From a bacterium (GTDB taxonomy: Bacteria; Zhuqueibacterota; QNDG01; JAFGCO01), in assembly GCA_016932575.1 (NCBI GenBank), contig JAFGCO010000025.1:1-34971 (forward strand): a stretch of DNA of 34,971 nt. Direction: 5' to 3'. Within the stretch, counting starts at the first letter, position 1; each line of letters begins with the position of its first letter. Below are positions 1 through 1,331 of this stretch, in pieces. The notes under the pieces were generated by a model. It had not been told where the DNA came from. It did no database searches and saw only the letters and a list, made by a program, of their open reading frames with translations. A program made the translations under genes and the position numbers.

Positions 1-198
1 TAGTTCCCGGTTCGCCAGGCAATAATGTTTTGATTGTTTTCATTATAATGTATCCATCGGACTTTTCACTCCAAGTCCTCCTTTATTTAAAACATGTGTA
101 TATATCATCGTTGTCTCAAGATGCTTATGACCCAGCAATTCCTGTACGGTCCGTATATCATATCCATCTTCCAGCAAATGTGTGGCAAATGAGTGTCT

Positions 199-468
199 TC
201 ACCCCGTGAGATAATTTGTAATTCGATTTTTTATGTATCTTTTTCCCCATGCAGTTTTCAGATATTTTTCTCTTTTTATTGCATCTTTTTGATTAAGGCA
301 TCCTTCCCAATATACTAAATTCAAAGTCTTACGATATTTTGTTGCTTTTACTCTACCACGATTATGCTCGTCAACTCTTTTTTGAATATTTATAGAGTAC
401 CCTACATAAAATTGATTATCAATTGTGGATTGGAGAACATAGACATAAAAGTAATTGGATTTTTTCAT
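199..468 (-). CDS. Small GIY-YIG endonuclease domain protein
   Basis: This is an 89-aa single-domain GIY-YIG nuclease of the small UvrC-like/UPF0213 type. The sequence shows the two-strand signature (YVYVL near 8-12 and YVGYS near 21-25), the helix with R31 and EHN at 34-36, and the metal-binding Glu in KREKYL (E67). Nothing else is fused to it. The ATG at 466-468 lies 17 nt inside one inverted-repeat end, and the stop TGA (199-201) uses the other end, so the last residues (NYLTG) are encoded by the terminal repeat. The protein therefore spans the whole insert and is the obvious candidate for the activity that moved it. Family members are known as homing or mobile-element nucleases and as uncharacterised housekeeping-like proteins. 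The mobile role here rests on context. Confidence 0.85.
   Translation of the reverse strand: MKKSNYFYVYVLQSTIDNQFYVGYSINIQKRVDEHNRGRVKATKYRKTLNLVYWEGCLNQKDAIKREKYLKTAWGKRYIKNRITNYLTG
201..213. repeat. Left terminal inverted repeat of the GIY-YIG element
   Basis: ACCCCGTGAGATA is a perfect 13-bp inverted repeat of 473-485. It overlaps the 3' end of the GIY-YIG ORF. With the preceding TC it also forms a small hairpin of its own, TCAC-CCC-GTGA, at 199-209. Confidence 0.85.
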
Positions 469-472
469 TTTC

Positions 473-485
473 TATCTCACGGGGT
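473..485. repeat. Right terminal inverted repeat of the GIY-YIG element
   Basis: TATCTCACGGGGT is the exact complement of 201-213. It abuts the integrase Phe codon at 486-488 and lies just upstream of the nuclease start codon, which is on the minus strand. Confidence 0.85.
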
Positions 486-1331
486 AAATGTATGACAACC
501 TGCATGCTTTGTAATGCCTGCTTTCCGGATAGCTGTCTTAACAGCTTTTTGCAAAACAGACTCATGCAAATGATGCCGCCTGTAGATACTGCTTCTTGGA
601 TCTTTTGAGATTCTGTGCGCGGGTAGAACAAATTGCCATGCCCATTCTCTTGAGGCATTTGGGTATTTTCGTTCCAGCGCGTAAGGCATATAGACACTTC
701 CGTAACCTTCTCTTAAATCTTTTTGATGAAGATTTTTAACTTTACATAAGTGCTCTTTCAGTGGTTGAATAATATTATCAGGCAGTGTTGTAATTCGATC
801 CTTAAATCCTTTCCCATTATTGACAACAATTTGCTTGAAACCAAAATCGATGTCTTTGACACGCAGATGAAGACATTCACTTAAACGCAGACCAGATCCA
901 TACATCAACATGGCTGCAAGCCAGTGCATGCCCATTAAATGCTTAACAATACTTTTTACTTCCTGATGTGTGAATACCACAGGCAGTTTTTTAGGTTTCT
1001 GTGCCCAGATAAGCTCGAGATTGCCAATTTCTTTTTTCAGAACATTCTTGTATAAATACACTATAGCACAAAGGGCCTGGTTCTGCGTGGATGCAGATAC
1101 CTTCCTTTTTATCGCAAGATACTTGAGAAATTCATTGATTTCAGCCTCTCCCATTTTCAAGGGGTGCCGTTTTTTATGGTAGTGTATATATTGTCTGATC
1201 CAGCTGATGTACGATTTTTCTGTTTTCAGGCTGTAATTCCTGGCCCGAAGATTTTCCCGCACCTGGTCCAGCAGTTTGGGAGTACGAGAGGATAGATCCG
1301 AATCCGGCTGCATAACGGGTCCGCCTTTCCT

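Follow-up and report, generated by a model that had tools for sequence, protein, structure and literature searches.

The 34,971-base contig JAFGCO010000025.1 (assembly GCA_016932575.1), here called the window, carries near its beginning an integron integrase gene split by an insert of 287 bp, almost all of which is a gene for a small GIY-YIG nuclease. We consider it probable, at roughly 60%, that this insert is a copy of a family of miniature DNA elements, each made of one GIY-YIG gene and of ends that pair with each other, the resulting hairpin being recognised and cut by the nuclease. Comparison of its copies shows that they have spread as precise units, reaching many sites and many genomes. 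The features of the window concerned (ORF, open reading frame; HMM, hidden Markov model) are the following.

199..485, minus strand: inserted element, given as 287 bp in an earlier note on this DNA; joining its flanks restores the integrase frame and HMM continuity, and an empty site exists in the same genome
473..488, minus strand: 5' terminal repeat relative to the ORF, TTTACCCCGTGAGATA, in which TTTA is likely a target-derived tetranucleotide
198..213, minus strand: 3' terminal repeat, TATCTCACGGGGTGAA, encoding the final Y-L-T-G of the ORF and its TGA stop
199..468, minus strand: GIY-YIG nuclease ORF, 89 aa
486..1367, minus strand: N-terminal part of the integron integrase, up to ...GCHTF
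46..198, minus strand: C-terminal part of the integron integrase, from RHSFATHLLEDGYDIR..., TIGR02249 positions 244-315

The host gene matches TIGR02249 with 349.6 bits, above the cut-off of that model, and its two parts, which directly flank the insert, align to the integrase HMM at 15-285 and 288-336. As the earlier note had claimed, removal of the insert restores the gene, the joined flanks giving an integrase frame of 353 codons. The empty site whose search the note had recommended is provided by an intact second integrase of the same genome (G000:C6:406680-407624, 69% identical), which reads CAT ACA TTG CGC CAT where the window has CAT ACA TTT[A...TGA]AGA CAC. This comparison of codons indicates a net gain of 287 bp in which every host codon was retained; the boundary can be placed only to within a few bases, 200-486 being as good a fit. 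The inverted ends (201-213 and 473-485) are complementary at 13/13 positions, likewise in agreement with the note, and can be extended to 16 bp (198-213 and 473-488) with one mismatch. The ORF occupies 270 of the 287 bp, its final codons (TAT CTC ACG GGG TGA) falling inside the 3' repeat. Within the window the 13-mer end, allowing one mismatch, occurs at these two places only (0.23 expected), and the genome holds a single copy of the gene-bearing element.

The ORF product belongs to the GIY-YIG superfamily (PF01541, E=7e-15) by its fold and its catalytic Tyr, Arg and Glu: Y10, R31 and E67, along with Y21, G23 and H35, are invariant in 32 relatives, and Y8 is nearly so. Other profile matches are weak (T5orf172 in Pfam, a group I intron endonuclease in NCBIfam). 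The predicted structure (pLDDT 89) resembles UPF0213 and the branched-DNA nuclease Slx1, the closest solved structures being 1zg2 and 7cq3. UPF0213/YhbQ and Slx1 have this fold in common with the family nuclease, but they are encoded by cellular genes or serve as subunits in repair, and matching ends are not known to flank them. Across the family, the nuclease ORFs are maintained, 81 of 83 loci having no internal stop. At two loci (L049, L056) the right end is GGGGC and provides no stop, and the GIY-YIG ORF runs about 70 codons into the C-terminus of a Bro-N host gene.

Relatives of the window's element were taken as the best 80 from one nuclease scan of 84,980 genomes (50-71% identity), and statistics on the ends cover 83 loci. 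A search for the pattern of the ends with 240-270 bp between them found two further copies in the KSB1 phylum (genome G044), and searching with the nuclease protein yielded further copies, with compensating changes at both ends. The same one-gene architecture recurs in about 15 phyla. Carriers include Bacteroidota, Ignavibacteriota, KSB1, Verrucomicrobiota, Planctomycetota, Cloacimonadota, Patescibacteria groups and others, with isolate genomes of Psychroflexus, Galbibacter, Fodinibius, Cyclobacterium and Maribellus among them. The pattern had no match in viral contigs, and tblastn found none in plasmids and two weak ones in phages. Because the window begins at the end of a contig and metagenome contigs supply many of the relatives, we considered whether the structure is an artefact of assembly, or an ORF that lies by chance next to an integrase pseudogene; recurrence of the structure in 83 loci, isolate genomes included, refutes this explanation, to which we give next to no credence.

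The ends of these copies, the matching ends that the note had proposed to look for, follow the consensus TTYACCCYGTKARATA ... TATYTMACRGGGTRAA around a core of mostly 268-315 bp, the element length being about 270-315 bp. The 13-bp ends are perfect in 41 of the 83 loci and have one mismatch in 27 (at most one mismatch in 68/83). Departures from the consensus affect two arms in 113 cases vs one arm in 49. There are distinct end classes (for instance CCCCGTGAGATA vs CCCTGTTAAATA), which change only 10 times on the nuclease tree, as against a mean of 30.9 and a minimum of 25 in 500 shuffles; the last eight residues, partly encoded by the repeat, were excluded from this test. Nuclease lineage and end sequence thus evolve together. 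Folding of the element as single-stranded DNA pairs its two ends (z -2.56). A strand-specific RNA hairpin was considered and rejected, G-U and A-C departures both being present on the ORF strand with no RNA-strand bias.

Distant small GIY-YIG ORFs in KSB1 are mostly devoid of such ends, which therefore belong to this clade. Four other small GIY-YIG ORFs of that phylum (L034, L026, L036, L015) lie between different palindromic repeats; those flanking L034 (TGTCATTCCCGAATGC.../...GCATTCGGGGATGACA) score 22 vs a null maximum of 12. A wider link between GIY-YIG genes and palindromes is possible, and other GIY-YIG lineages (L034, L026, L036) may act likewise with other palindromes.

Movement is apparent from near-identical elements in diverged or unrelated surroundings. 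The elements of a Rhodothermaceae and a Salinibacteraceae genome (L050/L051) are identical at 275/275 positions and occupy the same site of a Y1 transposase gene, with flanks that differ by about 18-20% (synonymous divergence, dS, of 0.42 on one side). Two copies in one Ignavibacteria genome (L083/L085) are 98% identical (dS 0.02) within integrases separated by a dS of 0.6-0.8. Copies in two different epimerase genes of one genome (L113/L117) are 96% identical, and another pair (L060/L071) is 90% identical, in both cases between unrelated flanks. The family thereby has the terminal inverted repeats and the movement as a unit of an insertion sequence or DNA transposon, with no known transposase or recombinase (DDE, HUH, serine or tyrosine) encoded by the element according to Pfam and NCBIfam.

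Same-site pairs such as L050/L051 and L083/L085, in which near-identical elements sit in diverged alleles, could also have been left by a classical free-standing homing endonuclease gene that cuts empty alleles at a conserved site and is copied by homologous repair. Such homing would also fit the clustering of host genes on the nuclease tree (15 changes vs 28.5 when shuffled). We nevertheless judge it improbable. Rather than one conserved site per lineage with co-conversion, there are many different sites in unrelated host genes, about 12 of them in recombinases, and unrelated flanks; in the two same-site pairs, flank differences start within a few bases of one end (the left in L050/L051, the right in L083/L085), leaving no clear co-conversion tract. 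The idea in the earlier note that the element homes to a catalytic codon has to be abandoned on the same grounds, as relatives occupy about 12 tyrosine-recombinase positions plus many unrelated genes that have in common a TTYA/TRAA-type sequence rather than an active site. Free-standing GIY-YIG homing genes of phages (Seg/Mob) are likewise lone, spreading GIY-YIG genes, but phage-type homing endonucleases carry a long DNA-binding tail (PMC3943268). The family nuclease is without an extended DNA-binding region, and homing does not include the paired, co-evolving ends or the ORF-less copies that set the family apart.

Tyrosine-recombinase sequence adjoins 24 loci. HMM positions are contiguous on both sides at no fewer than 14 integrase or recombinase loci (a lower bound; at least 14), from which it follows that insertion is precise. 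Other hosts are Y1 and Y2 transposase, Bro-N, DUF1016/YhcG, HATPase_c_4 and ORF6N genes and the starts of NAD-epimerase genes. Genes of other mobile elements predominate among the hosts, and among these genes the tyrosine recombinases come first. Targets have a short TTYA/TRAA-type sequence in common: of the 48 loci whose junctions could be scored, 41 have the tetranucleotides TTTA..TGAA or, in reverse complement, TTCA..TAAA (Fisher p=1.4e-6), with weak downstream preferences for a pyrimidine at +1 (p=1e-5) and T at +7 (p=3e-4). No fixed-length target site duplication is found, the gain being the core plus 4 nt in most integrase cases (plus 3 or 5 in some) between unequal tetranucleotides, and short direct repeats occur in single loci only (L088, L083). 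Such duplications are absent from some insertion sequence families too. We rejected a strict TT^AA target without duplication, which accounts for many of the loci but not for all.

Two groups of hosts show particular arrangements. At L115, L117 and L113 the element lies at the GG(A/V)GF|IGS codons of an NAD-epimerase gene whose 5' end is duplicated, one copy on each side; in L115 the two share 39 identical bases. An intact copy of the host gene is thus retained. At L010, L070, L073 and L109 the neighbour is an FGE-sulfatase gene with a GFRLV ending, the element lying at its C-terminus or just past it; such genes are similar to those for the variable proteins in diversity-generating retroelements. 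In the window itself, a degenerate 28-bp repeat (CCGGAGTTTCGGAACCAGAGG...) is present three times at 1491-1684, past the start of the integrase gene, together with related inverted repeats.

The flanking frames are intact in most hosts, and excision would be codon-exact, which raises the question of whether the host gene still works, the element being removed from RNA, bypassed in translation or excised from DNA in the manner of an intron or a ciliate internal eliminated sequence. In its favour, the stretch between insertions in two paralogous recombinases of G044 that carry insertions at the same two sites (L042/L043) has a dS of 0.47 with a nonsynonymous divergence (dN) of only 0.004. Functional hosts with the insert inside, as this ratio would suggest, become doubtful given the young age of the element copies and the truncation of one of the two paralogues at its 5' end. 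In the best-dated pairs host divergence predates insertion, and the youth of the insertions explains why flanking frames are intact. In some copies (L042, L043, L122) the ORF runs against the sense of the host gene, no Rfam ribozyme matches any of 10 loci including that of the window, and take-off and landing codons for translational bypassing do not match on inspection. Removal of any of these kinds is thus quite improbable, slightly more so than homing. A group I or II intron or an intein is not indicated either: the ORF fills the insert, which gives no Rfam match and no intein domain, and the note's description of a very small mobile element without recognisable ribozyme, intein or transposase holds. 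The L042/L043 recombinase genes adjoin IS91-like transposase genes; each carries a GIY-YIG copy with one or three tandem ORF-less copies and another ORF-less copy at the second site.

Such ORF-less copies with the ends of the family, 69-99 bp long, occur in 7 of 50 carrier genomes, and 7 genomes have hairpins of 31-58 bp with these ends (G112 has 16, the window's genome 3), a reversed-pattern control giving none in any genome. They are both dispersed and in tandem, the ORF-less copies of G044 adjoining a gene-bearing copy, and some hairpins are nested in other palindromes. In G044, G096, G100, G112 and the window's genome, short copies share their ends with a larger coding element of the same genome, as do miniature inverted-repeat transposable elements (MITEs). 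The hairpins of the window's genome, of 34 bp, lie at G000:C43:48061-48094 (L185), C11:33650 (L180) and C63:167491, that of L185 within a TGTCATCCCCGAATGC palindrome.

ORF-less hairpins outnumber ORF copies in some genomes, such as G112, and this is one reason to ask whether the ends are moved in trans by another enzyme, such as an IS200- or RAYT-type Y1/HUH transposase, the GIY-YIG gene being cargo or accessory. IS200/IS605 and RAYT enzymes act on hairpins or palindromes, and IS608 inserts 3' of a tetranucleotide without target duplication. The terminal repeat consensus of the Y1 proteins (TIRYT) cited in PMC6006769, GGGG[AT][CG]A[CG], is moreover not unlike the GGGGTRAA of the family. Against mobilisation in trans, the end class tracks the GIY-YIG protein tree, and the element, which contains no other ORF, keeps its one-gene architecture through some 15 phyla; we regard it as unlikely.

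We infer that the nuclease itself would be the mover of the element. The GIY-YIG protein would recognise the hairpin or cruciform of paired ends and cut at its foot, the same nuclease or the same activity would open a short TTTA-like target, and host repair and ligation would fix the copy there, with a gain of the core and 4 nt and without ordinary target duplication. GIY-YIG enzymes hydrolyse DNA and are not known to join DNA ends, so ligation would have to be the host's. So short an element leaves no room for an obvious promoter and probably depends on read-through transcription from the host gene, a dependence that would explain why the ORF usually runs in the sense of the host gene (36 of 41 loci when judged by the best open frame, the other 5 being opposite; 22 of the 24 loci in recombinases).

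By analogy, the element would work most like IS200/IS605 and REP/RAYT elements, a GIY-YIG nuclease replacing the transposase. IS200/IS605 elements likewise have a single small enzyme and hairpin ends, keep a tetranucleotide on one side, as IS608 does, and make no ordinary target duplication; however, they have an HUH/Y1 enzyme and separate subterminal hairpins, whereas the family has no such enzyme and its two ends pair together. With REP/RAYT (TnpA_REP), REPINs and TIRYTs the family shares dispersed and tandem short palindromes (PMC2817692, PMC3116915, PMC6006769), one nuclease gene with matching palindromes, and a great difference in length between the gene-bearing copy and the much shorter ORF-less ones. 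The RAYTs themselves are tyrosine enzymes of the HUH type, whereas Pfam and NCBIfam detect no such domain in the element; its single gene, a GIY-YIG one, lies inside the palindrome. Also, REPs are extragenic and the family elements often interrupt genes. MITEs and the palindromic elements of Rickettsia (PMC10969869) are likewise palindromic inserts in genes, the 69-99-bp copies being MITE-like, but known MITEs derive from transposase-coding elements, and the Rickettsia elements are read in frame while those of the family contain stops.

Several points weigh against the reading of the insert as a copy of a hairpin-cutting element. The case for mobility is a comparative one, and most loci come from metagenome assemblies. 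Apart from its catalytic fold, the ORF product has no domain for DNA binding, and GIY-YIG enzymes have no known end-joining activity. The inserted length varies, and this reading does not account for the coupling of the two junction tetranucleotides. Finally, a long open frame across the junction is found in 26 of 74 loci vs 22 in a shuffled-flank control, which is not significant alone; this test having failed its own null, the claim of insertion within genes rests on homology, continuity of the integrase HMM taking the place of the test.

The earlier note had called the element both mobile and autonomous: mobility stands, and autonomy is a matter of inference. A new autonomous class of prokaryotic mobile element, in which a stand-alone GIY-YIG domain recognises its own terminal hairpin without transposase, recombinase or reverse transcriptase, is a tentative proposal to which we give slightly less than even odds; under it, about 280 bp would be near the lower limit for a self-moving gene. 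As the note supposed, the family is apparently undescribed, no description having been found in the open-licence literature.

Small GIY-YIG proteins are common and mostly unexplained annotations in environmental bacterial genomes. If the family is self-moving, DNA transposition can be driven by a hydrolytic nuclease as well as by DDE, HUH, serine and tyrosine enzymes, and the minimum size of an autonomous element drops below 300 bp. A parent element would then be at hand for many dispersed palindromes of Bacteroidota and related phyla. As tyrosine recombinases and integron integrases are the most frequent hosts found, these elements may switch integrons off.
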